Below, in pieces: positions 15,497 to 36,946 of a stretch of DNA of 64,000 nt. Positions within the stretch are counted from its first letter, which is position 1; every line of letters starts with the position of its first letter. Made by a program: the position numbers and the translations under genes. The notes beneath the pieces are model-generated. The model ran no database searches, had not been told where the DNA came from, and saw nothing but the letters and a program-made list of their open reading frames with translations. Origin of the DNA: Acuticoccus sp. MNP-M23 (GTDB lineage: Bacteria > Pseudomonadota > Alphaproteobacteria > Rhizobiales > Amorphaceae). The DNA is taken from contig NZ_CP133480.1 in assembly GCF_031195445.1 (NCBI RefSeq), forward strand, positions 1,350,001 through 1,414,000, given 5' to 3'.

Positions 15497-15638
15497 GCTC
15501 TACGTCCCATGGGTCGCGCGCCGGGGTGTGCCGGCACGGGTTGCGCGCGGCGTGCACGAATGCGGCCGCGCGGCGTTGGTGTTGGTTTATTACAAGCCGG
15601 CCGCGCGTTGCAAAAACTTCCCGCGCGAACCGTGTGCC

Positions 15639-16998: not shown

Positions 16999-16999
<1 letters not shown>
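16301..16999 (-). CDS. Polar amino-acid-type ABC transporter permease 1
   Basis: The 232-residue HisQ/GlnP-type permease carries the loop RSTGLNFTQTLFSVIMPQAVRMTVPP near residues 139-164 that docks to the ATPase. It starts at 16999, overlapping the ATPase stop by 1 nt; MSGYERF at residue 6 is another possible start. Two different permease genes suggest a heterodimeric channel. Confidence 0.92.
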
Positions 17000-17799
<800 letters not shown>

Positions 17800-17810
17800 G
17801 GCTTGCTCGC

Positions 17811-18647: not shown

Positions 18648-18678
18648 GTTTGGCATCTCCTGATGGGGTTGCATTGAA

Positions 18679-18707
18679 AATATGCAGGCCAGTTTTGTGC
18701 CAGTCAA
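18679..18707 (-). promoter_or_regulatory. Overlapping sigma-70-like promoter
   Basis: On the minus strand TTGACT (18702-18707) and CATATT (18679-18684) are separated by 17 nt and overlap the sigma-54-like element. Either or both could drive the operon. The -35 box is strong, the -10 box matches four of six consensus bases. Confidence 0.4.
18688..18702 (-). promoter_or_regulatory. Sigma-54-like -24/-12 promoter of the hydantoin/amino-acid importer operon
   Basis: Read on the minus strand, TGGCACAAAACTGGC has the intact TGGCAC box and a GC at the required -12 position (consensus TGGCAC-N5-TTGC, one mismatch in TTGC). Transcription would start near 18676, giving a leader of about 28 nt before the binding-protein ATG at 18647. 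Nitrogen-limited expression is inferred. Confidence 0.55.
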
Positions 18708-18769
18708 TTGAACAAGTGGAACCGACCGGGTTGCAATTCTGTTGTATGCGCAACCAAGGAGTGACCGTG

Positions 18770-19171
18770 ATGGCCCCCACACTGACAATGCCGCGTTCGT
18801 CTGGAAGCCACCGCAAAGCGGAAGAGGCTCCGCCGTCGACCGAACAGCTCGACAAGCTTGCCCATATGCTGGACAGCCGCTTCAGCCTGTTCGGGATCCG
18901 CTTCGGCGTGGATTCGATGCTGGGACTCGTGCCCGGCATCGGCGATCTCGCCGGCCTCGGCATGTCCGCCTATATTCTGGGTCAGGGCTATAAGATGGGC
19001 GCCCGCAAGCGCACGCTGGCCCGCATGGGCGTCAACGTGATGGGGGACACCGTGTTCGGTGCCATCCCGGTGCTGGGCACGGTGATCGACGTGTTCTGGA
19101 AGTCGAACCGCAGCAACATGCGACTGCTGCACCGCGACATCGAACGCGGCAAGATGAAACGCCGCTTCTGA
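18770..19171 (+). CDS. DUF4112 domain protein
   Basis: The 133-residue protein has a DUF4112 core: LAHMLDSRFSLFGIRFGVD, LVPGIGDLAGLGMSAYILG and TVFGAIPVLGTVIDVFWKSNRSN. The hydrophobic stretches suggest membrane association. The function of the family is unknown. The ATG at 18770 has AAGGAG about 8 nt upstream; a GTG one codon earlier is possible. It is divergent from the importer operon and followed by a strong terminator, so it is probably a single-gene unit. Confidence 0.85.
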   Translation: MAPTLTMPRSSGSHRKAEEAPPSTEQLDKLAHMLDSRFSLFGIRFGVDSMLGLVPGIGDLAGLGMSAYILGQGYKMGARKRTLARMGVNVMGDTVFGAIPVLGTVIDVFWKSNRSNMRLLHRDIERGKMKRRF

Positions 19172-22309: not shown

Positions 22310-22438
22310 CCGATGCTCTCCCAAGTCTAATCAATGCGCGAGGTAGCCGCTTCCTCGCCCAATGTCACCAGTTGTCAGCGCGCGGGCTTGCCGGATCCAC
22401 CAAGCCCACGCCATTTTGTCACACGGGAGCCGACGCGA

Positions 22439-23146
22439 ATGCTGGGAAAAATCCTTCTCATCAACCCGAACTCGAACCAGGCCGTGACCGACGGCATGGC
22501 AGGCGCCGTCACCCCGTACAAGGTCCATGGCGGGCCCGAAGTCGAGTGCATCACGCTGACAACCGGCCCCTTCGGCGTTGAATCCCAGGCCGACGTGGAA
22601 GCCGTGACGCTGCCGCTGCGCAACATCGTCGCCTCGCGGCGGGACGTTGACGCGTTCATCATCGCCTGCTTTTCGGACCCCGGCCTCGCCGTCTGCCGCG
22701 AGGCGACGGGCGCCGCCGTGCTCGGCATCCGCGAATGCGCCGTGTTCAGCGCACTCACGCTGGGCGACCGCTTCGGCGTGGTTGCGCTGGGGCCTGCCTC
22801 CATCCGGCGGCAGTCGCGCGCATTTCGCGAGATGGGCGTGACCGCGCGCTGGGCCGGCTCGGCGCCGCTCCACATGAGTGTCGCCGACGCGGAGGAAGAA
22901 TCCGCCTACCCCGCCGTCCAGACCGCTGCCGAGCGTCTCCTCGAACAGGGCGCCGAAGCCATCATTCTGGGTTGCGCCGGCATGGTGAAGCACCGCGCCC
23001 CGCTGGCCCGCGCCATGGGCGTTCCGGTGATCGACCCCGTGCAGGCAGCTACGGCGCAGGCGCTGGGCGTTGCGCTTCTGGCCCGCTCCGAACGGGAGAC
23101 GGTGCCCGTGATGCCGACCCAGCTCACCGCTGCGCGCGGGTCGTAA
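22439..23146 (+). CDS. Hydantoin racemase (Asp/Glu racemase superfamily)
   Basis: The 235-residue enzyme should interconvert D- and L-5-substituted hydantoins so that a D-selective hydantoinase can use both. The start at 22439 has GGGAG upstream and gives the family N-terminus LINPNSN. The two catalytic cysteines are C77 (IIACFSDPGL) and C179 (ILGCAGM). It is divergent from alaS and lies about 3.8 kb from the hydantoinase operon start. Its 3' end overlaps the convergent EamA gene by 23 nt. Allantoin racemase is a possible alternative, as it is in the same family. Confidence 0.87.
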   Translation: MLGKILLINPNSNQAVTDGMAGAVTPYKVHGGPEVECITLTTGPFGVESQADVEAVTLPLRNIVASRRDVDAFIIACFSDPGLAVCREATGAAVLGIRECAVFSALTLGDRFGVVALGPASIRRQSRAFREMGVTARWAGSAPLHMSVADAEEESAYPAVQTAAERLLEQGAEAIILGCAGMVKHRAPLARAMGVPVIDPVQAATAQALGVALLARSERETVPVMPTQLTAARGS

Positions 23147-24110
23147 GCACCAGCGCGCCGGCGAGAATGAGGCCGGCGCCAGCCACGCTCACGAGGTCGG
23201 GCCAGACCGAGAAGATCGCGATGTCGTACACCGCTGCGAAGATGAGCGTGGTGTAGCCCACCGGCGCCACAAAGCTGGCGTCGGCCCGCTTCATGGCGGC
23301 AGTGTAACACATCTGCGCGCCCAGCATCAGCGTGCCCAGCGCCCACAGCGCCAGCCACTGGCCGGGCGTCGGCATCCGCCACACCGGCAAAACCGCCACC
23401 GACGACAGGATCAGCCCGAAGACGTTGGCCAGCAGCAGGATCTGCAACAGCGGCTCGCGCCCCGACAGGCGCTTGATGATCGTCAGCTCCAGCCCCATGA
23501 AGAGCGCCGCTCCCAGCGCCGCCACCGCGCCGAGGGACATGGCGCCCTCCCCCGGCCGCAAGAGGACGAACGCGCCGGACAGTGCAATCAACGTCGCAAT
23601 CCAGCGCCACCGGCCCACCCGTTCGCGCAGGATGAGGCCCGCCAGCACCAGCGTCACCACCGGGCTCAGGAACGAGATCGCGGTGGCGTCGGCGAGGGGG
23701 ATCAGGGTCGCCGCCATGAACATCAGCGTGACGGTGCTGAACCCGCAAACGGCGCGCAGCGCGTGGAGCGGCAGCGCCGGCCGCGTGAACGGCGCCCGCA
23801 CGGCAGCGGCCACCAGCGCCACCGCACCCAGCGCAAACAGAAAGCGGCCGTTGGTGATCTGAAGCGGATGCAGCGGCGCACCCAAAACAGGCGTGCCGAG
23901 CGCCTTGGCGAGCACCGTCGTCATCGCCACCAGCGCGGAGGCCAGCGCAATCAGCCCCACCGCCAGCAACGGCCGAGCAGCGGGCACGGCCGGTGCCGCA
24001 GGGTGAGCCGGCACGGCAATCACCTCGGATGCGGCGTGCACCGCAGCCACGCCGGTGGCAGGCGGCACCTGCGCCGTGTCTTGCGGTGCCGAAGTGTTCG
24101 ATGCGTTCAA
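23124..24110 (-). CDS. EamA/DMT-family transporter
   Basis: The product is about 328 residues with ten predicted membrane helices in two EamA repeats, such as PLLAVGLIALASALVAMTTVLAK and LGAQMCYTAAMKRADASFVAPVGY. It probably exports a metabolite from the cytoplasm. The best start is TTG 24110, with AAGGAG 5 nt upstream; the frame continues upstream without a good site. It is divergent from the molybdenum-hydroxylase operon and shares its 104-nt promoter region, so it may be a linked exporter. Confidence 0.82.
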   Translation of the reverse strand: MNASNTSAPQDTAQVPPATGVAAVHAASEVIAVPAHPAAPAVPAARPLLAVGLIALASALVAMTTVLAKALGTPVLGAPLHPLQITNGRFLFALGAVALVAAAVRAPFTRPALPLHALRAVCGFSTVTLMFMAATLIPLADATAISFLSPVVTLVLAGLILRERVGRWRWIATLIALSGAFVLLRPGEGAMSLGAVAALGAALFMGLELTIIKRLSGREPLLQILLLANVFGLILSSVAVLPVWRMPTPGQWLALWALGTLMLGAQMCYTAAMKRADASFVAPVGYTTLIFAAVYDIAIFSVWPDLVSVAGAGLILAGALVLTTRAQR

Positions 24111-24157
24111 TTCCGCTCCTTCACCGCCCGCCGTGCGTTGTCGCGCATTATTCCAAA

Positions 24158-24200
24158 TTGACAACTTCGCTGAGCGCGGCTTAACGTTCGTATACCAACG
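24158..24200 (+). promoter_or_regulatory. Promoter and palindromic operator of the 12-gene hydroxylase operon
   Basis: A perfect -35 box TTGACA (24158-24163) is followed 17 nt later by a weak -10 region (near 24181). Directly after it, CGTTCGTATACCAACG (24185-24200) is a 16-base palindrome with 7 of 8 pairs intact, ending 15 nt before the first start codon. A protein bound there would cover the transcription start, which fits repression by the MarR-family protein encoded at the operon end. That link is inferred. Confidence 0.5.
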
Positions 24201-24214
24201 ATCAGGACGGGTGA

Positions 24215-25051
24215 ATGTCATATCACTGCCCGCGAACTGTTGACGAGGCTCTGGCTGCGCTTTGCGTGGCGGACGCACGCATTCTTGCGGGCGGCACCGA
24301 CTTTTACGCAGCGCTTGGCGACCGCCCGCTCAACTTCCCCGTGGTGGACATCACCCGCATCGATGGCCTGCGCGCCATCACCCCGCACGAAGGCGGCTGG
24401 CGCCTCGGCGCCGCCACCACCTGGACCGACATCGTGCGCGCCCCCCTCCCCCCGGCATTCGACGGGCTGAAGGCCGCCGCGCGCGAGGTTGGCGCCGTGC
24501 AGATCCAGAACACCGGCACCATTGCCGGCAACCTGTGCAATGCCTCTCCTGCGGCAGACGGCGTGCCGGCCCTGCTGGCTCTGGGCGCCAGCATCGAGGT
24601 GGCAGGCTCCGGCGGTTTACGCACGGAGCCGCTGTCCGCCTTCCTCACCGGTGTCCGCCAGACCAGCCTTGCACCGGGTGAAATGGTGACGGCAATTCTC
24701 ATCCCGCCGCACGGCGCGGCGGCGCGCGGCGCGTTCGTCAAGCTCGGCGCCCGGCGTTATCTGGTCATCTCCATCGCCATGGCCGCTGCCGTTCTGGAGA
24801 CAGAAAACGGGCACATCAGCGCAGCCCGCGTTGCCGTGGGGGCGTGCTCGGCCGTTGCCGCACGGCTTCCCGCGCTGGAAGCCGCGCTGGCCGGCACGCT
24901 GGTGGCAGATGCACCTTGCGCGGTGGCGGCGGATCATTTCGCGGACCTTGCGCCCATCGGCGATGTGCGCGCCTCCGCCCCGTTCCGGATGGAGGCTGCG
25001 CTGGAGCTGGTGCGCCGCACCCTGAAATCTGCTGGTGAGGTCCCGTCATGA
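24215..25051 (+). CDS. Molybdenum hydroxylase FAD-binding subunit (CoxM/XdhB-like)
   Basis: The 278-residue protein carries FAD in xanthine-dehydrogenase-type enzymes and passes electrons from the iron-sulfur centres to the acceptor. FAD motifs are ILAGGTDFYAAL near residue 24 and QIQNTGTIAGNLCNASPAADG near residue 97. It is the first gene of the operon and overlaps the next by ATGA. The small size is normal for a separate FAD subunit. Confidence 0.92.
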   Translation: MSYHCPRTVDEALAALCVADARILAGGTDFYAALGDRPLNFPVVDITRIDGLRAITPHEGGWRLGAATTWTDIVRAPLPPAFDGLKAAAREVGAVQIQNTGTIAGNLCNASPAADGVPALLALGASIEVAGSGGLRTEPLSAFLTGVRQTSLAPGEMVTAILIPPHGAAARGAFVKLGARRYLVISIAMAAAVLETENGHISAARVAVGACSAVAARLPALEAALAGTLVADAPCAVAADHFADLAPIGDVRASAPFRMEAALELVRRTLKSAGEVPS

Positions 25052-27777
25052 GCGATGCTGCCGTCCGCAGCGCGCCGGAAGCTGCCGCCTCGTTCACCCT
25101 CAACGGCGTTGCGGTGGCACACGATGGCGCGCCAGGCGAACGGCTCAGCCAGGTGCTGCGCGAGCGGCTCGGCGCCCGTGACGTGAAGGTCGGCTGCAAT
25201 GCGGGCGACTGCGGCGCCTGCACCGTGCTTCTGGACCGCGAGCCGGTCTGCGCCTGCCTCGTCAGTGCCGGGCAGGCCGAGGGGCGCGCCGTCGACACTG
25301 TGGCCGGCCTTGCGGCCTCGCCGCTGGGGGCTGCCCTCGGCGCGTCGTTTCAAAGGCACGGGGCCGCGCAATGCGGCATCTGCACGCCGGGAATGCTCGT
25401 GTCGGCCGCGGCCCTGCTCGAGCATGATGCGGCCCCAACCGCCAGTGCCGTGGAGGAGGCGCTTGCCGGCGTCCTCTGCCGCTGCACCGGCTACCGCAAG
25501 ATCATCGCCGCGGTTCTCGATGTGGCCGGCGCCCCGGCGGTCCACGGCGAGGGCCGCGTCGGCGACGCGATCCCCCGGATCGACGGCCGCGCCAAGGTGG
25601 CCGGAACCGAGCGGTTCGGCGACGATGTCGCGCCCGAGGGAACGCTGGTCGTCAAGGTGGTGCGCTCGCCCCACGCCCACGCCGCCTTCACACTGGGCGA
25701 TCTCACCGCCTACCGCGACGCAACCGGCCTTGCCGCCATTCTCACCGCGCGCGACGTGCCGGGCAGCAACATTTTCGGCGTGATCCCGCCTTTTGCCGAC
25801 CAGCCGGTGTTTGCCGAGGGCACCGCCCGCTTCCGCGGCGAGGCCATTGCCGCCATTGTCGGCGAGCCGGCGGTGGTTGCGGCGCTCGACCTTGCCGCCT
25901 TTCCGGTGTCGTGGGAACCTTTGCCTGCGCTGGAAAGCCCGGTCGCTGCCCTGGCCGACACGGCGCCCCGCATCCATGGCAGCCGCCCCGGCAATGTCAT
26001 GTGCCGCGGCGCGGTCCGCCATGGCGACGCCGCCGCAGGCCTTGCCCGCGCCGACATTGTGGTTGAGGGCACCTTCACCACGCCCTTCGTCGAGCACGCC
26101 TATATCGAGCCGGAAGCCGGGTTCGCGCAGGTGGTGGACGGGCGCATCGAAGTCCATGCCTGCACGCAGGCCCCGGTGATGGACCAGGAAGGCCTTGCCG
26201 CCATCCTCGGCCGGCCGCTGGCGGATGTGCGCGTGGTGCCCACCGGGATCGGCGGCGGCTTCGGCTCCAAGCTCGACCTTTCGGTCCAGCCCTTCGTGGC
26301 CATCGCCGCCTTGAAGACGGGCCGACCGGCCCGCATCGCCTACACCCGCACCGAATCGATGCAGTCCACCACCAAGCGGCACCCAGCCACCATCCACGCG
26401 CGGATCGGCGCAACACGGGACGGCCGGATCAGCGGCTTTGCCTTCCACGGCGTGTTCGACACCGGCGCCTACGCCAGCTGGGGGCCGACGGTGGCCAACC
26501 GCGTGCCCGTCCACGCCTCCGGCCCCTACGGCGTGGCCGACTACGAGGCGACCAGCGAGGCGATCCACACCCACAACCCGCCGTCCGGCGCCTTTCGCGG
26601 CTTTGGCGTTCCGCAATCGGCCATCGCGCAGGAGGTGCTGTTCGAGGATCTTGCGCTGGCGCTCGGCCACGATCCGCTGGAATTCCGCCTCGCCAATGTC
26701 CTGCGCAACGGAACGCCCACCGTGTGCGGGCAGGTGTTTGAACAGGGCGTCGGTATTGCGGCGTGCCTGGAGGCGCTGAGGCCGCACTGGCAGCGTGCGC
26801 GGGCCGATGCCGAAGCCCTTTCGACCGCTACGCTGCGCCGCGGCGCCGGCATTGCCTGCGGCTGGTACGGCTGCGGCAACACCTCCATGGCCAACCCCTC
26901 CACCATCAAGGCGGGGGTAACGGCGGACGGCACCATCGTCCTCCACCAGGGCGCCACCGACCTTGGCCAGGGCTCCAACACCGTCATCGCGCAGATCTTC
27001 GCCACGGCGCTCGGCGTGCCGGTGGCCGCCATCACCCTCGTCGGCCCTGATACGGACGTGACGCCCGATGCCGGCAAGACCAGCGCCTCCCGGCAGACGT
27101 TCATTTCCGGCAACGCCGCCAAACGCGCCGGCGAAAGTTTGCGCGCGGCTCTGCTGCGCCTTGCCAATGCCGGCCCGGATGCCGAGATCGTCCCCGGCCG
27201 GGGCCTGGCGGTGGTCGACGGCGACCGGAAGCAGATCATCGAGCTGCCGGCCGCCGAGGGGCCGTACGCACTGGTGGTTGCAGAAAGCTACGATCCGCCC
27301 ACCGAACCGCTGGACGAGAACGGTCAGGGCGCGCCCTACGCCGTGTTCGGCTACGCGGCACATCTGGTGGAGCTGGAAGTCGACGTGGCGCTGGGGCGTG
27401 TGCGGCTCATCAAGTTCACCGCCGCACACGACGTGGGCAAGGCCATCAACCCGGCGCTGGTGGAGGGCCAGGTGGAGGGCGGCATTGCGCAGGGCATGGG
27501 CATGGCGCTGATGGAAGAATACATCCCCGGCCGCACCGAGAACCTGCACGACTATCTGATCCCCACCATCGGCGACATGCCGCCGGTGGAAACGCTTATC
27601 ATCGAGGAGGCCGACGCGCACGGCCCGTATGGCGCCAAGGGCCTTGGCGAACACTGCCTCATCCCCACCGCACCGGCGATCCTCAACGCCATCCGCCATG
27701 CCACCGGCGCACGCCTCACGGATGTGCCCGCCACACCGGACCGGGTGCGTGCCGCCATCAAGGCCGCCAGGCCATGA
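25048..27777 (+). CDS. Molybdenum hydroxylase, fused 2Fe-2S and molybdopterin subunits
   Basis: The 909-residue chain joins two subunits that are usually separate. Residues 15-160 bind two 2Fe-2S clusters (C50, C55, C58, C70 and C109, C112, C144, C146). Residues from about 170 form the molybdopterin domain, with GGGFGSK, GAFRGFG and the catalytic glutamate E868 in KGLGEH. Such enzymes hydroxylate carbon next to nitrogen in heterocycles using water. With the FAD subunit it makes a two-gene enzyme. The downstream hydroxynicotinate-reductase homologue suggests a nicotinate-like or other N-heterocyclic substrate; xanthine or an aldehyde cannot be excluded. Confidence 0.9.
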   Translation: MSDAAVRSAPEAAASFTLNGVAVAHDGAPGERLSQVLRERLGARDVKVGCNAGDCGACTVLLDREPVCACLVSAGQAEGRAVDTVAGLAASPLGAALGASFQRHGAAQCGICTPGMLVSAAALLEHDAAPTASAVEEALAGVLCRCTGYRKIIAAVLDVAGAPAVHGEGRVGDAIPRIDGRAKVAGTERFGDDVAPEGTLVVKVVRSPHAHAAFTLGDLTAYRDATGLAAILTARDVPGSNIFGVIPPFADQPVFAEGTARFRGEAIAAIVGEPAVVAALDLAAFPVSWEPLPALESPVAALADTAPRIHGSRPGNVMCRGAVRHGDAAAGLARADIVVEGTFTTPFVEHAYIEPEAGFAQVVDGRIEVHACTQAPVMDQEGLAAILGRPLADVRVVPTGIGGGFGSKLDLSVQPFVAIAALKTGRPARIAYTRTESMQSTTKRHPATIHARIGATRDGRISGFAFHGVFDTGAYASWGPTVANRVPVHASGPYGVADYEATSEAIHTHNPPSGAFRGFGVPQSAIAQEVLFEDLALALGHDPLEFRLANVLRNGTPTVCGQVFEQGVGIAACLEALRPHWQRARADAEALSTATLRRGAGIACGWYGCGNTSMANPSTIKAGVTADGTIVLHQGATDLGQGSNTVIAQIFATALGVPVAAITLVGPDTDVTPDAGKTSASRQTFISGNAAKRAGESLRAALLRLANAGPDAEIVPGRGLAVVDGDRKQIIELPAAEGPYALVVAESYDPPTEPLDENGQGAPYAVFGYAAHLVELEVDVALGRVRLIKFTAAHDVGKAINPALVEGQVEGGIAQGMGMALMEEYIPGRTENLHDYLIPTIGDMPPVETLIIEEADAHGPYGAKGLGEHCLIPTAPAILNAIRHATGARLTDVPATPDRVRAAIKAARP

Positions 27778-29204
27778 CCGCCGCCGAAAAGATCCGCTGC
27801 GATGCCTGCCCGGTGCTCTGCTACATTGCCGACGGGCGGACGGGCGCATGCGACCGGTACGCCAACCACGACGGCAACCTCGTCCGCCTCGACCCCTTGA
27901 CCGTGCTGGACATCGCTGGCGACGACCAGCGCGTCGTCCCCTTCCTGTCGGGCGCTCAGGACTGGGAGGGCGAGGCGTTTTCGTCGGGCGCCAAGTTCGT
28001 CACCGCCATCGGCGCCGGCACCACCTATCCGGACTACAAGCCCGCCCCCTTCATCGTCAGCCAGAAGGTGGGCGACGAAGACATGGTCACCGTCGTGACC
28101 GAAGGCATCTTCAGCTACTGCGGCGTGAAGGTGAAGATCGACACCGACCGCCACATCGGCGAGGAGCGCGCCATCGTGCGCGTGGACGGCGAGCCCGTCG
28201 GCCATGTGATGACCGGCGAATACGGCTCGCGAATGCTCTCGCTGGGCGGCGTCGACCATCTCACCGGCGGCTCCAAGAAGGAGGGCCGCGTCACCTGCGC
28301 GACCCTTCTGGCGCTGTGCAACCGTCAGTCGGTCGAGATGGAGGTCGAGGACGGCGCCCGTCTCGTCATCGCGGCCGGCAAGGCGCCGGTGATCAACGGC
28401 ACGGAAGAAGCGCGGATGCGCGTCGGCTGCGGCTCGGCGACCATCGGCATGTTCGCCCGCCAGTGGGCGCCGCTGGTGGACGATGTGGTGGTGGTGGACG
28501 ACCACATCACCGGCGTCCTGTCCGAGCATCAGGCGGGGCGACTGCTCGACGTGCCGCCCACCGGCATCAAGCTGAAGGGCCGCAAGTCGACGCCGGGGCG
28601 GTATTTCCAGGTTGCCGGGCCCGGCACGTCGTGGGGCGGCACGGACATTGCGGACCCGCTGGAGATTTTGGGGCCGTTCAACCCCAAGGTCGCGTGGCCC
28701 GGCATGCGCCTGCTGATGGTCTCCACCACCGGCGAACAATCCGCCTACTACACGCTGAATGAGGCGCTGGAGCCCGTCCCCACCGACCTCACCACGGCAC
28801 TGGAGGCGGTGGTGGCGCGCATTTCGGAAAATTGCGAACCGGCCACGGCGTCGGTGCTCTTCATGGGGGGCGCAGGCGGGTCGCTGCGCGCCGGTGTGAC
28901 GGAAAACCCTGTGAGGCTCACCCGCTCGGTGAAGGCCGCGCTCACCCGCGTCACGGTGGGCGGGGCACCGGCATTCGTGTGGCCGGGTGGCGGGATCACG
29001 GTGATGGCCGACGTGCTCGCCATGCCCGAAAACGCATTCGGCTCCGTGCCGACACCGGCGCTGGTCGCCCCCATCGAGTTTACCCTGCGGCGAAGCGACT
29101 ACGCCGCGCTCGGCGGTTACATCAACGAGGTGCAAAGCCTTGAGGACGTGCTGGCAAAGGGGATGCCCGCCGGCGTGCGAACCGAAAACGGCGAGGCCGC
29201 GTGA
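27774..29204 (+). CDS. 6-hydroxynicotinate reductase homologue
   Basis: The 476-residue protein begins KIRCDACPVLCYI and continues GRTGACDRYANHDG, a cysteine-rich N-terminus like that of 6-hydroxynicotinate reductase, the iron-sulfur flavoprotein that reduces the pyridine ring in Eubacterium barkeri nicotinate fermentation. Further cysteines occur in FSYCGVK, VTCATLLALC and RVGCGSA. The gene overlaps the hydroxylase gene (ATGA), so hydroxylation then ring reduction is a natural order. An enamidase, the next enzyme of the known route, is not in this operon. The actual substrate in this organism is unproven. Confidence 0.75.
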   Translation: MTAAEKIRCDACPVLCYIADGRTGACDRYANHDGNLVRLDPLTVLDIAGDDQRVVPFLSGAQDWEGEAFSSGAKFVTAIGAGTTYPDYKPAPFIVSQKVGDEDMVTVVTEGIFSYCGVKVKIDTDRHIGEERAIVRVDGEPVGHVMTGEYGSRMLSLGGVDHLTGGSKKEGRVTCATLLALCNRQSVEMEVEDGARLVIAAGKAPVINGTEEARMRVGCGSATIGMFARQWAPLVDDVVVVDDHITGVLSEHQAGRLLDVPPTGIKLKGRKSTPGRYFQVAGPGTSWGGTDIADPLEILGPFNPKVAWPGMRLLMVSTTGEQSAYYTLNEALEPVPTDLTTALEAVVARISENCEPATASVLFMGGAGGSLRAGVTENPVRLTRSVKAALTRVTVGGAPAFVWPGGGITVMADVLAMPENAFGSVPTPALVAPIEFTLRRSDYAALGGYINEVQSLEDVLAKGMPAGVRTENGEAA

Positions 29205-30058
29205 TGGAACGGGCCAGCGCGCACCGCCTTGCCGATGGCCGTCTCCACCTGTCACACGGTCCGATCGACCTCGTCATCAGCGCCGAGGGCGCCGCGGACG
29301 CCGTGACCGTTGCCGAAGCCGCCGCCACCGCCCGTTTCGCCACCATTCTGGCCGAACTTGCAGCCGAACTCCCTGCGCTGCGCACCGCGGGCGGCATCGG
29401 CGCCTCCCCTGTCGGCGCGCGGATGACCAGGGCCGTTGCCCCTCACACCGCCTTCGTGACCCCGATGGCCGCCGTTGCCGGCGCCGTGGCGGACGAAGTT
29501 CTGGTCGCGATGATTGCAGCGGCCCCCCTCACCCGCGCCATCGTCAACAACGGCGGCGACATTGCGCTTCATCTGGCCCCCGGCACAAAGGCCGACGCAC
29601 GCATTGCGCTGGGCGATGGATCGACGGCGGGCCACATTGCCATCAGCGCCGGGGACGGGATCGGCGGCATCGCAACCTCCGGCCGCCACGGCCGCAGCCT
29701 CTCGCTCGGAATTGCCGACAGCGTGACGGTGCTTGCCCCCCGCGCTGCCGAAGCGGACGCCGCCGCCACCCTCATTGCCAACGCCGTCGACCTGCCGGGA
29801 AGCCCTGCCATCATCCGCACGCCTGCCAATCTGCTGGACCCGGACAGCGACCTCGGCACCCGCCCCGTCACCACCGCGGTCGGCCCGCTGTCCCGCGCCG
29901 AGGTGGCCGAGGCGCTGGAACGGGGCGCATCCGCTGCACGCGAAATGCAGGCAGAGGGGCTGATCGCGGCGACAGCCTTGATCCTGGCTGGCGAAGGCCG
30001 CACCGTCGGCACATTCCTCAATTTCCCAATCATCACCCAAGGCAATCCCGACCGATGA
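29204..30058 (+). CDS. UPF0280 family protein (ApbE-like fold)
   Basis: The 284-residue protein has the UPF0280 pattern: GIGASPVGARMTRAVAPHTAFVTPMAAVAGAVAD and IVNNGGDIALHL, with GIATSGRHGRSLSLGIADSVTVLA near residue 165. The fold is related to ApbE, which attaches FMN covalently to target threonines. Here it directly follows the reductase homologue, so flavinylation of that protein is a reasonable guess, not shown. The ATG at 29204 overlaps the previous stop by 1 nt; a GTG at 29201 is also possible. Confidence 0.78.
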   Translation: MERASAHRLADGRLHLSHGPIDLVISAEGAADAVTVAEAAATARFATILAELAAELPALRTAGGIGASPVGARMTRAVAPHTAFVTPMAAVAGAVADEVLVAMIAAAPLTRAIVNNGGDIALHLAPGTKADARIALGDGSTAGHIAISAGDGIGGIATSGRHGRSLSLGIADSVTVLAPRAAEADAAATLIANAVDLPGSPAIIRTPANLLDPDSDLGTRPVTTAVGPLSRAEVAEALERGASAAREMQAEGLIAATALILAGEGRTVGTFLNFPIITQGNPDR

Positions 30059-30639
30059 GCGCCAAAGTCCGCAAGATCGCCGTCTTTCTCGACGAGACGC
30101 ACCTGGAAATGGGCCGCACCATCGCCCCCGCAACGCGCCGGGCCGCCGCCATCGCCGTGATCGAGAACCCGTTCGCCGGAACCTATCAGCACGACCTGTC
30201 GGAGCTGATGGAGATCGGTGCCGAGATGGGGGCCATGCTCGGCAACCGCGCCGTGCAGGCGCTCGGCATTGCGCCGGAGCGGGTCGAAAGCTACGGCAAG
30301 GCCGCGATAGTGGGCGAAAACGGCGAGCTGGAGCATGCCGCCGCCATCCTCCACCCCAAGCTCGGCGCGCCCCTGCGCGACGAGGTGGGCGGCGGCAAGG
30401 CCCTCGTCCCCTCCTCAAAGAAGATGGGCGGCCCCGGACAGGTCCTGGACGTCCCCCTTGGCCACAAGAATGCCGCCTATGTGCGCTCGCACTTCGACGG
30501 GATCGAGGTGCGCCTCAACGATGCCCCCCGTGCCAACGAGATTCTGGTCGCCGTCGCGGTGACCGATTCCGGACGCCCGCTGCCGCGCGTCGGCGGCCTC
30601 ACCAAGAAGGAAATCGTGGGTGACGATGGCTTGCGCTGA
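30055..30639 (+). CDS. Amino acid synthesis family protein (PF06684/DUF1185)
   Basis: The 194-residue protein belongs to PF06684, seen from KIAVFLDETHLEMGR, PFAGTYQHDLSELMEIGAEMG and KKMGGPGQVLDVPLGHKNAAYVRSHFD. Structures of the family show a chorismate-mutase-like fold and led to a suggested role in amino-acid metabolism; no activity is established. It starts by ATGA overlap at 30055. Conserved placement with ring-cleaving enzymes could mean action on a small dicarboxylate or amide intermediate. Confidence 0.82.
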   Translation: MSAKVRKIAVFLDETHLEMGRTIAPATRRAAAIAVIENPFAGTYQHDLSELMEIGAEMGAMLGNRAVQALGIAPERVESYGKAAIVGENGELEHAAAILHPKLGAPLRDEVGGGKALVPSSKKMGGPGQVLDVPLGHKNAAYVRSHFDGIEVRLNDAPRANEILVAVAVTDSGRPLPRVGGLTKKEIVGDDGLR

Positions 30640-30654
30640 CCGGGCGGCCCGCCT

Positions 30655-31047
30655 GTGAGCGAGCGTCGCGGAACGCTGCTTCGCCGCGCTGCCTGGGAGA
30701 AACCCGGCGAGAGCTGGCGCGGCCATGTGGAGGGGCTGACGCTCGGCACCAACGTGACGGTGCTGTTCCACGCCTCCGAACCCGGTGGCGGCGCACCGCT
30801 CCACGTTCACCCGTATGATGAGATCTTCATCGTGCGCGAAGGGCGCGTGCGCTACACTGTCGGCGACGACACGATCGACGCAAAAGCCGGCGATATTGTG
30901 CTTGGCCCCGCCAACGTCCCGCACAAGTTCACCAACATGGGGCCTGGCCGCCTCGAAACCACCGACATCCACCTCAGCGACCGCTGGATCCAGCAGAACC
31001 TCGATGATCCGGGCGATCGCCGGGACGCCGAAAACGACCCCGCCTGA
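30655..31047 (+). CDS. Cupin-domain protein
   Basis: The 130-residue protein starts with GTG and forms one cupin barrel: GGGAPLHVHPYDEIFIVREGRVRYTVG (metal ligands H-x-H and E) and GPANVPHKFTN (later His). It may be a small dioxygenase, isomerase or ligand sensor for the pathway. It lies 15 nt after the DUF1185 gene and 28 nt before the binding-protein gene. Confidence 0.85.
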   Translation: MSERRGTLLRRAAWEKPGESWRGHVEGLTLGTNVTVLFHASEPGGGAPLHVHPYDEIFIVREGRVRYTVGDDTIDAKAGDIVLGPANVPHKFTNMGPGRLETTDIHLSDRWIQQNLDDPGDRRDAENDPA

Positions 31048-31075
31048 GCCCCCTCCGACACCAAGGGAGACGACC

Positions 31076-32287
31076 ATGATCACACGACGCGTAACGCTTG
31101 CACTGGCACTTGCCGGCACGATTGCCGGGCTCGCCCCGGCCGCCCTCGCGCAGGATGGCACGCCGATCAAAGTTGGCGAGATCAACTCCTACACCCGCCT
31201 GCCGGCCTTCACCGAGCCCTACAAGAAGGGCTGGGAGCTGGCGATGGAGGAGATCAACACCGCCGGCGGCATCGACGGACGGCCGCTGGAGATCATCAGC
31301 CGGGACGACACCGGCGACCCCGCCACCGCAATCCGCATTGCCGACGAGCTGACCTCGCGCGAAGGCGTCTCCTTCCTGTTCGGCACCTTCCTCAGCAATA
31401 TCGGCCTCGCCGTTGCCGACTTTGCGAACCAGAAGAAGATCTTCTTCCTCGCCTCCGAACCGCTGACCGACGCGATCGTCTGGTCCGACGGCAACGACTA
31501 CACCTACCGCCTGCGCCCCTCCAACTGGATGCAGACCGGCATGCTGGCCGCGGAGGCTGCCAAGCTCCCCGCCACCAAATGGGCGACGATTGCCCCCAAC
31601 TACGCCTACGGCACCGACGCTGTGGATGCCTTCAAGACCCAGCTGAAGGCACTGAAGCCCGAGGTGGAGTTTGTGGAAGAGCAGTGGCCGACGCTGTTCA
31701 AGATCGACGCCGGCTCCTCGGTTCGCGCGCTGGAAGGCGCCAAGCCGGACGCGATCTTCAACGTCACCTTCGGCCCCGACCTTGCCAAGTTCGTGCGCGA
31801 AGGCTCCATCCGCGGCCTGTTCGACGGGCGCGAGGTGGTGTCGCTCCTGTCGGGCGAGCCTGAATATCTGGAGCCGCTGGGCGACGAGACTCCGGACGGC
31901 TGGATTGTCACCGGCTACCCCGGCAACGACGTGAACACCCCCGAGCACGACGCCTTCGAAAAGGCGTACATGGAAAAATGGGGCGAAGCGCCGAAGACCG
32001 GCTCCATCGTGGGCTACAACTCGGTGATGACCATCAAGAAGCTGATCGAGACCGCGCCGTCGCTCCATACGGCAGACCTTCTGGCCACCATGGAAGGCCT
32101 TGAGGTGGACAGCCCCACCGGGCCGTTCGTGTTCCGCAAGGCCGACAATCAGGCCACCATGGGCGCCTATGTGGGCAAGACCGCCCTGGTGGACGGCAAG
32201 CCCTCCATGGTCGACTGGGTCTATGCCCCCGGCGCGGATTTCCTCCCCAGCGAGGCCGACGCCGCCAAGATGCGCCCCGCGCAGTAA
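31076..32287 (+). CDS. ABC transporter substrate-binding protein, branched-chain amino-acid type
   Basis: The 403-residue periplasmic protein has a signal peptide ending PAALAQ near residue 24, then a Leu/Ile/Val-binding fold: IKVGEINSYTRLPAFTEPYKKGWELAMEEIN and GGIDGRPLEIISRDDTGDP. In heterocycle or aromatic-acid operons such proteins often bind aromatic carboxylates rather than amino acids. It works with LivHM, LivG and LivF encoded just downstream. An intercistronic hairpin follows its stop. Confidence 0.9.
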   Translation: MITRRVTLALALAGTIAGLAPAALAQDGTPIKVGEINSYTRLPAFTEPYKKGWELAMEEINTAGGIDGRPLEIISRDDTGDPATAIRIADELTSREGVSFLFGTFLSNIGLAVADFANQKKIFFLASEPLTDAIVWSDGNDYTYRLRPSNWMQTGMLAAEAAKLPATKWATIAPNYAYGTDAVDAFKTQLKALKPEVEFVEEQWPTLFKIDAGSSVRALEGAKPDAIFNVTFGPDLAKFVREGSIRGLFDGREVVSLLSGEPEYLEPLGDETPDGWIVTGYPGNDVNTPEHDAFEKAYMEKWGEAPKTGSIVGYNSVMTIKKLIETAPSLHTADLLATMEGLEVDSPTGPFVFRKADNQATMGAYVGKTALVDGKPSMVDWVYAPGADFLPSEADAAKMRPAQ

Positions 32288-32294
32288 GACGAGC

Positions 32295-32316
32295 GGAGCG
32301 GCTTGCGGGCCGCTCC
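32295..32316 (+). other. Intercistronic stem-loop after binding-protein gene
   Basis: GGAGCGGC (32295-32302) pairs perfectly with GCCGCTCC (32309-32316) across a 6-nt loop, 8 nt after the stop. There is no T-run. Such stems often protect the upstream mRNA from 3' decay, giving more binding protein than permease. Confidence 0.5.
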
Positions 32317-32344
32317 CACCCCTTCACCAATCGAGTTCCCGCCG

Positions 32345-33193
32345 ATGTCGACCACCGTGTTCTGTGCCGTCTTGCTGGCCGCGCTCCTCCACGCGGTCTG
32401 GAACGCGCTCGTCAAGGGCGGTGCGGACAAGCATCTGGGCATGGCGGCTGTCTCCATCGGCCATGTGCCGTTTGCGCTGGCTGTCCTGCCCTTTGCCCCG
32501 GCGGTGGACATGGCAAGCCTGCCCTGGATCATCGCCAGCATCGCCCTGCATCTCGGCTATCAGCTCTTCCTGCTGGCGGCCTACAAGATCGGCGATCTCA
32601 CACAGGTCTATCCCATGGCCCGCGGCAGCGCGCCGCTGATCGTCACGGCCTATTCGGTCTTCGTCCTGGGGGTGGTGCTCGACCGGTTGCAGCTCCTTGC
32701 CGTGCTCCTCATTGCCGCCGGCATCATCTCGCTGGCGCTGGTGCGCAAACGGGATGGCCTGCGCAACCGCAAGGCCGCGGTGCTGGCGCTGGGCACCGGC
32801 GCATTCATTGCCGCCTACTCGCTGGTTGACGGGCTCGGCGCCCGCGCCGCCGGCAGCCCGCTCGGCTTCTACGCCTATGTGGGGCTGGGCAGCGGGTTCG
32901 CCTTCGGGGTGGTTACGCTGTTCATGCGGCCGGACGTGCTGCCCCGCCTCGTCACGGACGGGCGCCGGATGTTCTTCATCGGCGGCGGCTGCTCTTTCGC
33001 CGCCTACGCGCTTGTGGTCTGGGCGTTCACCCATGCCCCCATCGCCCTGGTCACTGCACTGCGGGAAACCAGCATCGTCTTTGCCCTGATGATCGGCGTG
33101 TTTGCGCTGGGCGAACGGCTCGACCTCGGCAAGCTCATTTCCACCGCAACAACGCTGATGGGCGCGATCTTGCTGCGCGCTGCCAAATCATGA
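32345..33193 (+). CDS. EamA/DMT-family transporter within the hydroxylase operon
   Basis: The 282-residue membrane protein has about nine to ten helices and EamA features (HAVWNALVKGGADKH, DLTQVYPMARGSAPLIV, ALVTALRETSIVFALMIGVFALGERL). It lies between the binding protein and permease genes of the ABC importer, an odd position, and is probably an exporter or alternative carrier for the same substrate class. Start ATG 32345 was chosen for the family N-terminus. Confidence 0.87.
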   Translation: MSTTVFCAVLLAALLHAVWNALVKGGADKHLGMAAVSIGHVPFALAVLPFAPAVDMASLPWIIASIALHLGYQLFLLAAYKIGDLTQVYPMARGSAPLIVTAYSVFVLGVVLDRLQLLAVLLIAAGIISLALVRKRDGLRNRKAAVLALGTGAFIAAYSLVDGLGARAAGSPLGFYAYVGLGSGFAFGVVTLFMRPDVLPRLVTDGRRMFFIGGGCSFAAYALVVWAFTHAPIALVTALRETSIVFALMIGVFALGERLDLGKLISTATTLMGAILLRAAKS

Positions 33194-33215
33194 CATCCCC
33201 CGCCGGAGACTGCCC

Positions 33216-35063
33216 ATGAGCTTTTACTTTGCGCAGCTTCTCACCGGCCTTGCGAACGCGTCTTCGCTGTTTCTCATCGCGTCGGGCCTGTCGATCATCT
33301 TCGGGGTAACGCGGGTGGTGAACTTTGCCCACGGCTCGCTCTACATGCTGGGCGCCTACCTCGCCTACACGCTCATCACCACGCTCGATTTTGGCGTCTT
33401 CGGCTTCTGGGGCTCGGTGCTCGCCTCCGCGTGCATCGTCGCGGTCATCGGCGGTGCCATCGAAATCCTGATCCTGCGGCGGATCTACCGTTCGCCGGAG
33501 CTGTTCCAGCTCGTCGCCACCTTCGGCGTCGTCCTCATCGTACAGGACGTGGTGCAGGCCATCTGGGGCGCGGAGGACCTTCTCGGCCCACGCGCGCCGG
33601 GCCTGTCCAAGGCCGTGCGGATCTTCGGCGAACCGATCCCCGAGTACGATCTGGCGCTCATCGGGGTAGGGCCGCTGGTGCTCGCCATCATCTGGCTGAT
33701 CTTCAACCGCACGCGCTGGGGCATTCTGGTGCGCGCCGCCACCGAAGACCGCGAGATGGTCGGCGCGCTCGGCGTCAACCAGCGCTGGCTTTTCACCAGC
33801 ACCTTCATGGTCGGCTCCTTTCTGGCGGGCCTTGGCGGCGCGATCCAGATCCCGCGCGAATCCGCCAGCCTGCTGATGGACCTGTCCATCATCGGCGAGG
33901 CTTTTGTGGTGGTGGTGATCGGGGGCATGGGCTCTGTCACCGGCGCGTTCGTTGCCGCCGTCATCATTTCGGTCCTCAACGCATTCGGCGTGCTCGTCTT
34001 TCCGCAGATCTCGCTGATCCTGCCATTTTTGGTGATGGCGATCGTGCTGGTGGTCCGGCCCTACGGGCTGTTCGGGACCGCAGCCTCCGCCCACGGCGCT
34101 CCCACGGTGCCGGAGGCGCCGATGCGCCCGCTCGGCCGTGGCGGTCTCATCGTCGCGGCGGTGTTGATTGCATGTGCCGTCGCCCTCCCCGCGTTCGAGA
34201 GCGGCTTCATTCTGGTCCTCCTGACCGATGTTCTGATTGCCATGCTGTTCGCCGCCAGCCTCCACTTCATCATGGGGGTGGGGGGCATGGTTTCGTTCGG
34301 CCACGCGGCGTATTTCGGGCTGGGCGCCTACGGAGCGGCGCTGGCAGTGCGGGCACTGGAACTTCCCATGCTTGCGGCCATGGCGTTCGGCCCGCTGGTC
34401 GCGGGGCTTGGCGCGATGATCTTCGGCTGGTTCTGCGTGCGGCTTTCGGGCGTTTACCTTGCCATGCTTACGCTGGCCGCCGCGCAGATCCTGTGGGGCA
34501 TCACCTTCCAGTGGCAGGGGATCACCGGCGGGGATGACGGCATTCTCGGCGTGTGGCCCGCGAGCTGGGCCTCCGGCAACGTCGCCTACTTCTACATCGC
34601 GCTGGCGCTGTGCGGCGGCGGCCTTCTGTTGATCCGACACCTCGCCCACACCCCGTTCGGCTACGTCTTGCGCGGCGGACGCGACTCGCCAACCCGGATC
34701 GAGGCGATCGGCATCAACCTCAACGCCCACCAATGGCTGGGCTTCATCATCGCCGGCATGTTCGCGGGGCTGGCCGGGGTCGTCTTCGTCTTCTCCAAGG
34801 GCTCGGTGTTTCCCGATACGCTCGCCATCAGCCAGTCCATCGACGGGCTCATCATGGTGCTTCTGGGCGGCGTTCAGGCGCTCTCCGGGCCGCTGTTCGG
34901 CGCCGCCGCCTTCGTGCTGATCGAGGATTTCGTGACCCGGCTCGACTATTGGCGCTTCATCTTCGGCGCCATCATCCTTGCCATCGTGCTCCTCGCCCCT
35001 GACGGGATTTCCGGGGGAATATCGCGCCTCCTTGGTGTGTTCCGGCGAAAGGCACCGGCATGA
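33216..35063 (+). CDS. Fused LivH-LivM branched-chain-type ABC permease
   Basis: The 615-residue protein joins LivH (about residues 1-290, with FGVTRVVNFAHGSLYMLGAY and VIGGMGSVTGAFVAA) and LivM (about 305-610, with GVGGMVSFGHAAYFGLGAYG and IDGLIMVLLGGVQALSGPLFGAA). The usual state is two genes, and here one chain would supply both halves of the channel. The start overlaps nothing, and the stop overlaps LivG by ATGA. Confidence 0.93.
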   Translation: MSFYFAQLLTGLANASSLFLIASGLSIIFGVTRVVNFAHGSLYMLGAYLAYTLITTLDFGVFGFWGSVLASACIVAVIGGAIEILILRRIYRSPELFQLVATFGVVLIVQDVVQAIWGAEDLLGPRAPGLSKAVRIFGEPIPEYDLALIGVGPLVLAIIWLIFNRTRWGILVRAATEDREMVGALGVNQRWLFTSTFMVGSFLAGLGGAIQIPRESASLLMDLSIIGEAFVVVVIGGMGSVTGAFVAAVIISVLNAFGVLVFPQISLILPFLVMAIVLVVRPYGLFGTAASAHGAPTVPEAPMRPLGRGGLIVAAVLIACAVALPAFESGFILVLLTDVLIAMLFAASLHFIMGVGGMVSFGHAAYFGLGAYGAALAVRALELPMLAAMAFGPLVAGLGAMIFGWFCVRLSGVYLAMLTLAAAQILWGITFQWQGITGGDDGILGVWPASWASGNVAYFYIALALCGGGLLLIRHLAHTPFGYVLRGGRDSPTRIEAIGINLNAHQWLGFIIAGMFAGLAGVVFVFSKGSVFPDTLAISQSIDGLIMVLLGGVQALSGPLFGAAAFVLIEDFVTRLDYWRFIFGAIILAIVLLAPDGISGGISRLLGVFRRKAPA

Positions 35064-35830
35064 GCGCGCTCACCGTCAAGGGTCTCGCCAAGTCGTTCGG
35101 CGGCGTGGATGCGGTGTCGGACGTGTCGTTCACGCTGGATACCGGCGAGTTTCTGGCGCTGATCGGCCCCAACGGCGCCGGCAAGACCACCTGTTTCAAC
35201 ATGTTGAACGGCTACCTCAAGCCGGACAGGGGCATGGTTCACCTCGGCGATACGCCCATCACCGGCCTTCGCCCCCGCAAGGTCTGGCGGCTGGGCGTGG
35301 GCCGTACCTTCCAGATCACCGAGACCTTCGCCACCATGACCGTGGCCGAAAACGTGCAGATGGCGCTGATCTCGCACCACCACCGCACGCTCTCCATGCT
35401 TGCCCGCGCCACCCGCCTCTACCGCGCCGAAGCGGAGGCGCTGCTCGCCCGCGTCGGCATGGCGGACGACGCCGGCCGTGCCACATCCGAGCTTGCGTAT
35501 GGCGACCTGAAGCGCCTGGAGCTTGCCGTTGCCCTCGCCAACCGCCCCAAGGTGCTTCTGATGGACGAACCCACCGCCGGCATGGCCCCGTCCGAACGGC
35601 TGTCGCTGATGGCGCTGACGGCGGACATCGTCCACCAGGAGGGCGTCAGCGTCCTCTTCACCGAGCATGACATGGACGTTGTCTTTGCCCATGCCGACCG
35701 TATTCTGGTGCTCAACCGCGGAAAGCTGATCGCCGAAGGGTCGGGCGAACAGATCCGCGCCAATCCTCTGGTGCGCGAGGTCTATCTCGGTGGCGGCTCG
35801 GTGTTTGGCGAGGAGGCCGCCAATGCTTGA
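35060..35830 (+). CDS. LivG-like ABC transporter ATPase
   Basis: The 256-residue ATPase has Walker A GPNGAGKT near residue 39, GVGRTFQITETFATMTVAENV, signature ELAYGDLKRLELAVALA and Walker B VLLMDEPTAGM. The long Q-loop-to-signature helical region and TFQ motif are typical of LivG. It overlaps the permease and the LivF gene (8 nt), which supports a coupled transporter. Confidence 0.94.
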   Translation: MSALTVKGLAKSFGGVDAVSDVSFTLDTGEFLALIGPNGAGKTTCFNMLNGYLKPDRGMVHLGDTPITGLRPRKVWRLGVGRTFQITETFATMTVAENVQMALISHHHRTLSMLARATRLYRAEAEALLARVGMADDAGRATSELAYGDLKRLELAVALANRPKVLLMDEPTAGMAPSERLSLMALTADIVHQEGVSVLFTEHDMDVVFAHADRILVLNRGKLIAEGSGEQIRANPLVREVYLGGGSVFGEEAANA

Positions 35831-36524
35831 GGTTTCCGCGCTTAACACCTTTTACGGCGGCGCCCACATCCTGCGCGATGTCGGGTTTGCTCTCGCCGGC
35901 AACGAGGTCGTGGCGCTTCTCGGCCGCAACGGGGCCGGCAAATCCACCACCATGAAGTCGATCATGGGGCTGGTCCGGCCGCGTTCGGGCAGCGTCCGCT
36001 TCGAGGGCGAGGAGATTGCCGGCGCCCCCGCCTTCCGCATCTGCCGCGAGGGGATCGGCTATGTGCCGGAAGACCGCCGCGTGTTTGCAGCGCTGACGGT
36101 GGAAGAAAACTTGGAGGTCGGCCGCCGCCCACCCCGCGAAAACACCGCCACATGGAGCGAGGATGCGCTCTACACCCTGTTTCCCAACCTTGGCGAACGG
36201 CGGCGGCAGGCCGCGGGGCGCCTGTCCGGCGGCGAACAGCAGATGCTGACCATTGCGCGCACGCTGATGGGGAACCCGCGGCTCATCTTGCTGGACGAAC
36301 CATCGGAAGGGATTGCGCCGCGCATTGTGGAAGAGATGGCCGGCGTGATCCTCGAGATGAAGCGGCAGGGCGTCACGGTGCTTTTGTCGGAACAGAATCT
36401 CTACTTTGCCAAGCTGGTGTCGGACCGGGCGGTCATCATCGAAAAAGGCGAGGTCCGCTTTGCCGGACCGTTTGCGGCGCTGGCCGAACAGCCGGAAATC
36501 GCCCAGCAATATCTGGTCGTCTGA
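35823..36524 (+). CDS. LivF-like ABC transporter ATPase
   Basis: The 233-residue ATPase starts MLEVSALNTFYGGAHIL and has Walker A GRNGAGKST, YVPEDRRVFAALTVEENL and signature LSGGEQQMLTIARTLM, as in LivF. Walker B is LILLDEPSEGIAP. It overlaps the LivG stop by 8 nt and its own stop overlaps the MarR gene by 1 nt. Confidence 0.94.
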   Translation: MLEVSALNTFYGGAHILRDVGFALAGNEVVALLGRNGAGKSTTMKSIMGLVRPRSGSVRFEGEEIAGAPAFRICREGIGYVPEDRRVFAALTVEENLEVGRRPPRENTATWSEDALYTLFPNLGERRRQAAGRLSGGEQQMLTIARTLMGNPRLILLDEPSEGIAPRIVEEMAGVILEMKRQGVTVLLSEQNLYFAKLVSDRAVIIEKGEVRFAGPFAALAEQPEIAQQYLVV

Positions 36525-36946
36525 TGGCCGGCGAAGCGCCCTACCGGCTCGACGACCAGATCGGATACCTCTTGCGGCTGGCCGGTCAGCGCCACGTGGC
36601 GCTGTTCCAATCCCTCATGGAACACGACCTGACGCCAACCCAGTTCGCCATGCTGATCCGCCTTGGCGAGGTGGGTCAGGGCTCGCAAAACCAGCTCGGC
36701 CGGATGATCGGAATGGACGTCGCCACCACCAAGGGCGTGATCGACCGGCTGAAAGCCAAGGCCCTCATCACCCTCGCTGCCGACCCTGCCGACAGCCGCC
36801 GCCGGCTCATTGCCCTGTCGGAAGACGGGATCAAGCTCCTGCCGGCACTTCAGGCGCTGGGGCACCAGATCACCGACGCCACGCTGGGCGATCTGGACAA
36901 GGCGGAGCGCGCCACCCTCCTTGCCCTTCTCCGCCGGATCAGCTGA
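36524..36946 (+). CDS. MarR-family transcriptional regulator
   Basis: The 140-residue protein has a winged helix-turn-helix: LTPTQFAMLIRLGEVGQGSQNQLGRMIGMDVATTKGVIDRLKAKALI, with wing residues DPADSRRRLIALSEDG. MarR proteins usually repress catabolic genes and release DNA when the aromatic substrate binds. As the last gene of the operon it probably acts on the palindrome at 24185-24200. A NicR-like role in nicotinate-type catabolism is a plausible comparison. Confidence 0.88.
   Translation: MAGEAPYRLDDQIGYLLRLAGQRHVALFQSLMEHDLTPTQFAMLIRLGEVGQGSQNQLGRMIGMDVATTKGVIDRLKAKALITLAADPADSRRRLIALSEDGIKLLPALQALGHQITDATLGDLDKAERATLLALLRRIS

Follow-up and report, generated by a model that had tools for sequence, protein, structure and literature searches.

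A probable nicotinate catabolic pathway split over two loci in Acuticoccus sp. MNP-M23

Is an operon that encodes the hydroxylation and reduction of an N-heterocycle, with no enamidase among its genes, the remnant of a nicotinate pathway, a variant of it, or one part of a pathway distributed over the genome? This question is raised by twelve genes of Acuticoccus sp. MNP-M23 within a stretch of 64,000 nucleotides (nt), referred to here as the window (assembly GCF_031195445.1, contig NZ_CP133480.1, positions 1,350,001 to 1,414,000, forward strand). A first-pass annotation, made from the sequence of the window alone, had described the enamidase of known nicotinate fermentation as missing and had suggested a variant pathway for nicotinate or another heterocycle. 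The enamidase is indeed absent from the operon, but an orthologue is present in the same genome (C1:2186367-2187533), approximately 0.8 Mb away, and it is highly probable that the two loci together encode a nicotinate catabolic pathway of the hydroxylation, ring reduction, and enamidase type. The pathway itself is already known; reading one locus alone can make it seem incomplete.

In the pathway that we propose, nicotinate would be brought in by the LivHM-type ATP-binding cassette (ABC) importer and converted to 6-hydroxynicotinate by the molybdenum hydroxylase, which is made up of a flavin adenine dinucleotide (FAD) protein and a fused iron-sulfur/molybdenum protein. The reductase Hnr would convert 6-hydroxynicotinate to 1,4,5,6-tetrahydro-6-oxonicotinate, and the distant enamidase would open the reduced ring. 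Electrons would be fed to Hnr by a ferredoxin-NADP reductase encoded beside the enamidase, the covalent flavin of Hnr would be installed by the UPF0280 protein, and the MarR protein is the probable regulator of the operon.

Ring opening and the pathway substrate

The best solved-structure match of the unlinked enamidase is 2VUN, the enamidase of Eubacterium barkeri (E 6.2e-109 over residues 7-386, 380 residues; runner-up, E 3e-7), and the protein is 78% identical to the enamidase that adjoins Hnr in a related locus (L080). Divergent from its gene and about 140 nt away is the gene for the ferredoxin-NADP reductase (65%; a second, 60% copy is found elsewhere in the genome). The same pair occurs in three genomes of the same genus (G003, G005, and G007), and this reductase is probably the electron source for Hnr. 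With a 2VUN-type enamidase in the same genome, the possibility that the pathway lacks this enzyme was rejected. A Bmp-type (PnrA-like) ABC importer adjoins the unlinked pair (L123:2951-6998).

Two surveys covered relatives of these genes. In the first, 398 pseudomonadotal genomes were searched for Hnr, UPF0280, enamidase, and HyuA; the best four candidates per genome were scored for Hnr and enamidase, the best six for UPF0280, and the best two for HyuA, so that absences are not absolute. Identity of at least 62% defined an enamidase orthologue and of at least 60% a caprolactamase-like HyuA. Removed prior to counting were the weak matches to Hnr in G129 and G251 (E ~3e-4) and to UPF0280 in G207 (8e-5), enamidase matches weaker than E 1e-150 (including those of G276, 46%, and G326, 42%), and HyuA matches of 42-45% identity, one of which is in the window's own genome. 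The second survey covered 88 related loci of at least 15 kb; L124 and L125, without matches, were excluded, and two pairs with identical DNA (L040/L143 and L090/L138) are counted among the 88. The part of this sample that came from a collection scan represents the best 80 of 592 relatives, and distant forms of Hnr, that of E. barkeri included, lie outside it.

Enamidase is encoded in the same locus as Hnr in 46 of the 88 loci, and none of the 88 contains both enamidase and HyuA. Thirty-two of the 398 genomes have Hnr; 18 of these have enamidase, 16 have HyuA, 2 have both (G161 and G232), and 0 have neither, and the two enzymes avoid each other within this set (Fisher p 5e-7, with kinship ignored). 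No Hnr-lacking genome among the 398 harbors enamidase or HyuA at those identities. An internal stop is present in 2 of the 16 HyuA genes (G205 and G232). HyuB adjoins HyuA in most of the HyuA-bearing loci, the genome survey covering HyuA alone. Against the NCBIfam model NF050156, HyuA scores 492 bits (cut-off, 1000), and by this model it is caprolactamase-like and not a caprolactamase. Replacement of enamidase by HyuAB would predict that a second enzyme exists for opening the pyridine ring of vitamin B3 once it is reduced. A variant pathway is thus not needed in this organism, whose genome contains the enamidase; the suggestion fits those relatives with HyuAB in place of enamidase and perhaps three genomes of the same genus in which neither was found.

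These three genomes (G002, G004, and G006) carry Hnr and UPF0280 without an enamidase orthologue, G006 having a 42% paralogue, and together with the 26 of 88 loci in which neither ring-opening enzyme is visible they weigh against our interpretation. No HyuA was found in the 19.5 kb around their operons, HyuA not having been searched genome-wide in them, and they argue against a universal rule of enamidase or HyuA. A thiamine pyrophosphate (TPP)-dependent enzyme, absent from the window, is encoded divergently beside the Hnr operon in G002 (L144:3122-4672), G006 (L145:3122-4672), and G004 (L146:3052-4785), on the minus strand in each case; it is recognized by Pfam in G002 and G006 and by 84% identity in G004. 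In L145, HbpS-like and LysE genes are located among the importer genes.

The TPP-dependent enzyme next to the operon of genomes without an enamidase orthologue raises the possibility that the true substrate is another N-heterocycle (picolinate, for instance, or a nicotinate with substituents), toward which the specificity of the Hnr and enamidase homologues would have shifted. The hydroxylase and importer families are broad enough to accommodate this, and it would leave room for the local cupin and EamA proteins, which are unexplained. The window, however, contains no such TPP gene, its genome does have an enamidase orthologue, and hydroxylases of the NicB type can substitute around the same core; we regard a different substrate as clearly unlikely.

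The hydroxylase may act on nicotinate. Its fused subunit contains Fer2, Fer2_2, Ald_Xan_dh_C, MoCoBD_1, and MoCoBD_2 domains (Pfam) and belongs to the xanthine-oxidase family. Successive parts of the subunit match 3hrd_A (268.6 bits), 3hrd_B (209.1 bits), and 3hrd_D (116.7 bits), which are chains of the nicotinate dehydrogenase of E. barkeri, and the separate matches sum to 594 bits, a rough guide only, versus 403.6 bits for the best single chain, aldehyde oxidoreductase 1dgj. The FAD subunit is not discriminating. In 10 of the 88 loci, the window-type hydroxylase is replaced by a NicB-type protein, and the replacement pair of Neorhizobium is annotated nicA/nicB. NicB of Pseudomonas carries cytochrome c domains, and the NicB-type large subunit has a weak cytochrome c match at its C terminus. 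The presence of a NicB-type protein in the hydroxylase slot suggests that nicotinate is the common substrate.

Hydroxylases and ring-opening enzymes occur in various combinations. The xanthine-oxidase-type hydroxylase is found with enamidase in 42 loci, with HyuA in 9, and with neither in 22, and the corresponding numbers for the NicB type are 3, 5, and 2; the remaining 5 loci have neither hydroxylase (1 with enamidase, 2 with HyuA, and 2 with neither). On a tree of 86 Hnr rows, comprising the window and 85 loci (with the duplicate DNA of two pairs removed and L141, whose hnr is broken, absent), a minimum of 3 changes is needed for the ring-opener label and 4 for the hydroxylase label. That Hnr and UPF0280 form a constant core around which hydroxylases and ring-openers are exchanged is in keeping with a single substrate, nicotinate, which is most likely the substrate of the operon. 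The earlier proposal of an N-heterocycle that is hydroxylated and then reduced is supported, the heterocycle most likely being nicotinate. Next to Hnr or importer genes, L110 (5050-6144, minus strand) and 12 of the 88 loci encode a VanA_C-domain Rieske oxygenase that, as a guess, may be an N-demethylase converting trigonelline (N-methylnicotinate) to nicotinate. In 15 of the 88 (e.g., L172:6125-7534, minus strand), an uncharacterized 469-aa protein without an NCBIfam match is encoded beside an alternative Liv-type importer near Hnr.

Nicotinate fermentation in E. barkeri reportedly proceeds likewise through hydroxylation, ring reduction, and enamidase; unlike the window pathway, it is reported to involve a four-subunit selenium hydroxylase and an anaerobic lower pathway. 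A homologous cluster is described for the nicotinate-growing Bradyrhizobiaceae SG-6C (PMC3511419); it encodes the three initial enzymes, an importer, and a pair of conserved proteins without names, which we infer to be UPF0280 and DUF1185. The Azorhizobium caulinodans/SG-6C cluster is reported to be of the same hydroxylation, ring reduction, and enamidase type as the window pathway, and differs in that the window has its enamidase unlinked, a cupin and EamA added, and perhaps in the two-protein make-up (FAD protein and fused iron-sulfur/molybdenum protein) of its hydroxylase.

The ring reductase Hnr and its UPF0280 partner

The reductase of the operon is named here as a putative 6-hydroxynicotinate reductase homologue from the annotation of its relatives and its identity to them. 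The protein is 60-78% identical to Hnr in other genomes. Among 26 plasmid records with Hnr, all at 60-80% identity, 17 give the name as 6-hydroxynicotinate reductase or hnr, 3 list a hypothetical protein, and 6 lack a feature at that place. Nine Cys residues are invariant in all 42 aligned rows. No Pfam or NCBIfam family was found for Hnr at E 0.001, a profile search against solved structures returned a chance match only (E 0.36), and GCV_T_C, matched at E 1 or better by 32 of 42 members, gave values too weak to be used (best, 0.00066). In G056 (L141, around 9510), hnr is split by a frameshift into two overlapping frames, representing a pseudogene or a sequencing error.

Strong matches to Hnr and to UPF0280 occur in the identical 32 of the 398 genomes, which represent 16 genera. 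The chance of identical sets by random draw is ~10^-47, a figure inflated by kinship. UPF0280 is encoded downstream of Hnr, on the same strand and within 700 nt, in 98 of the 101 loci with both, a MarR gene intervening in 4 of the 98. This pairing provides a testable function for UPF0280, a family with an unexplained role in homocysteine synthesis as well. Literature searches on UPF0280 and on 6-hydroxynicotinate reductase with flavin found no paper.

The window UPF0280 protein scores 343.5 bits against NF003322 (cut-off, 290), and its solved-structure match is PDB 2o34. By profile comparison, UPF0280 is a distant relative of the ApbE flavin mononucleotide transferases (PF02424). In the one hhalign comparison, which gave a probability of 85.9, an E of 5.9e-7, and 19% identity, the NNGGDI, ATSG, and ADAAAT segments of UPF0280 were aligned with the GGD, ATSG, and ADAxAT segments of ApbE; some of the 19 ApbE rows were badly cut (lengths of 1, 140, and 209 aa). 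PF02424 matches at E 1 or better were obtained for 19 of 40 UPF0280 members (best, 5.9e-5). Residues D186, G119, D120, A158, and S160 are conserved in 40 of 40 members and T190 in 38 of 40, and we take these to be the positions of the ApbE metal-site ADAxAT and of the GG and ATSG segments. Among seven Hnr genomes that were checked, no PF02424 match at E 0.001 was found in the window's own (G000) or in G027, G040, and G075, and at least one was found in each of G013, G019, and G028.

The Hnr of E. barkeri is reportedly a covalent flavoprotein. Taken together with the relation to ApbE and the occurrence in the same genomes as Hnr, this suggests that UPF0280 may be a divergent transferase of the ApbE type that attaches the flavin to Hnr, a role to which we give about an even chance. 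A number of observations count against it. The similarity of UPF0280 to ApbE is very weak, with low column confidences in the hhalign alignment and a PF02424 score for the window protein of 13.3 bits (cut-off, 25.6); the H..DP.TG loop of ApbE is absent from UPF0280, falling in a gap of the alignment; ApbE structures are absent among the UPF0280 profile matches to solved structures; and the classical ApbE target motif was not recognized in Hnr. UPF0280 is encoded elsewhere in the locus in 3 of the 101 loci with both genes and is not visible in 4 of 105 Hnr loci (L088, L097, L114, and L117, the last a 3-kb contig). Finally, the homology between COG2122, the family of UPF0280, and ApbE seemingly stops short of the ApbE flavin-binding region, according to PMC5764234.

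The same paper describes a Desulfovibrio system for homocysteine synthesis in which COG2122 is needed along with DUF39 and NIL/ferredoxin proteins, and suggests a persulfide role (PMC5764234). Shared with the present pathway is the COG2122 protein, needed there with an enzyme and a ferredoxin-type protein; the partner and the reaction differ. By analogy, UPF0280 could handle sulfur and not flavin, assisting Hnr at a step that involves persulfide or Fe-S, and the nine invariant Cys residues of Hnr would be in keeping with such a role. We consider this somewhat unlikely, as the ApbE-type segments are conserved in UPF0280 and E. barkeri Hnr is reportedly a covalent flavoprotein. Flavin installation can be extended to a broader proposal, in which UPF0280 would be a second class of the ApbE superfamily dedicated to the covalent flavin of Hnr (and, by extension, to an unrecognized flavoprotein of the UPF0280-dependent homocysteine pathway), and in which the ATP-dependent HyuAB would truly replace enamidase in about half of the sampled Hnr-bearing Proteobacteria. 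We put this combination forward tentatively, at a little less than an even chance.

DUF1185, cupin, and EamA

The DUF1185 protein of the window is the sole match in its genome and scores 243.3 bits against PF06684 (246.7 bits in the genome search; cut-off, 27). Its solved match is PDB 2qtp, which is SPO0826 (E 4e-95). The neighbors of SPO0826, according to PMC2954203, are branched-chain-amino-acid ABC-transport genes, placing both proteins near Liv-type importer genes. DUF1185 occurs in two sorts, often in tandem, separated at 60% identity to the protein of the window: 75 copies fall below this value (type A) and 77 reach it (type B); the window holds one, of type B. Residues E91, E93, H94, H100, R108, H146, R174, and R178 are at least 97% conserved in each type and would suit an active site, and the types differ at position 176 (His in A, Leu in B). 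DUF1185 was not found in 7 of the 88 loci and so looks helpful rather than essential; it probably acts, although our confidence is low, on a reduced or opened intermediate. The cupin is present in 2 of the 88 related loci, both from the same genus, and EamA was not found in the 88; both are local additions.

A precedent for a more direct role is the hcd cluster for 7-hydroxycoumarin, in which, according to PMC7913881, DUF1185 and a cupin adjoin a ring reductase as they do in the window, and four co-expressed proteins yielded a ring-opened acid. DUF1185, the cupin, or both might thus open the reduced ring in place of enamidase. The hcd reductase, unlike that of the window, is of the alcohol-dehydrogenase type and acts on an alpha-pyrone, and the reduced lactone of the coumarin case also hydrolyzes spontaneously (PMC7913881). 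The enamidase is present in the window's genome, DUF1185 accompanies both ring-openers, and the cupin and DUF1185 are distributed among the loci as given above, all of which makes ring opening by these proteins very unlikely; as a general rule it was rejected on the 88-locus counts. Of the three proteins left without a step by the first-pass annotation, UPF0280 has now been given a likely role, and DUF1185 and the cupin are still without one.

Operon layout and neighboring genes

The twelve genes, all on the plus strand at 24215-36946 of the window, were confirmed in the order previously described, with domains as named (Pfam and NCBIfam), as were the fusions of the 2Fe-2S and molybdenum parts and of LivH with LivM (Pfam domains) (Table 1). 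In gene order, the junction gaps are -4, -4, -4, -4, 15, 28, 57, 22, -4, -8, and -1 nt (range, -8 to +57), and from this tight packing the operon is likely transcribed as a single unit. Promoter- and terminator-like sites are no more frequent than expected by chance (1 versus 0.8 expected and 9 versus 7.0 expected, respectively).

Table 1. Genes of the operon, with positions in the window and the basis of each assignment
Feature	Position	Strand	Basis
FAD subunit of molybdenum hydroxylase, 278 aa	24215..25051	+	PF00941, PF03450
Fused [2Fe-2S]/molybdopterin subunit, probable nicotinate dehydrogenase, 909 aa	25048..27777	+	Pfam, 3hrd chains
Hnr, 6-hydroxynicotinate reductase homologue, 476 aa	27774..29204	+	9 invariant Cys, identity to relatives
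UPF0280/COG2122 protein, proposed flavin-installing partner of Hnr, 285 aa	29201..30058	+	NF003322, PDB 2o34, distant ApbE relation
DUF1185/AA_synth protein, type B, 194 aa	30055..30639	+	PF06684 (on longer frame 29140-30639)
Small cupin, genus-local, 130 aa	30655..31047	+	PF07883
Substrate-binding protein of ABC importer, 403 aa	31076..32287	+	PF13458 (longer frame 30785-32287); NCBIfam matches below cut-off
EamA-type carrier, 282 aa	32345..33193	+	PF00892
Fused LivH-LivM permease, 615 aa	33216..35063	+	Two PF02653 (BPD_transp_2) stretches in one protein
LivG-type ATPase, 256 aa	35060..35830	+	PF00005, PF12399
LivF-type ATPase, 233 aa	35823..36524	+	PF00005
MarR-family regulator, 140 aa	36524..36946	+	PF12802, PF01047

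Directly upstream of the operon (window positions 22334-24278) are genes for an Asp/Glu/hydantoin racemase (plus strand) and a second EamA-type carrier (minus strand). Farther away, at 11519-18788 on the minus strand, another cluster encodes parts of an amino-acid-type ABC importer, a nitrilase-type hydrolase, a flavin-reductase-like protein, and an amidohydrolase, and possibly represents a pathway for another nitrogen compound.

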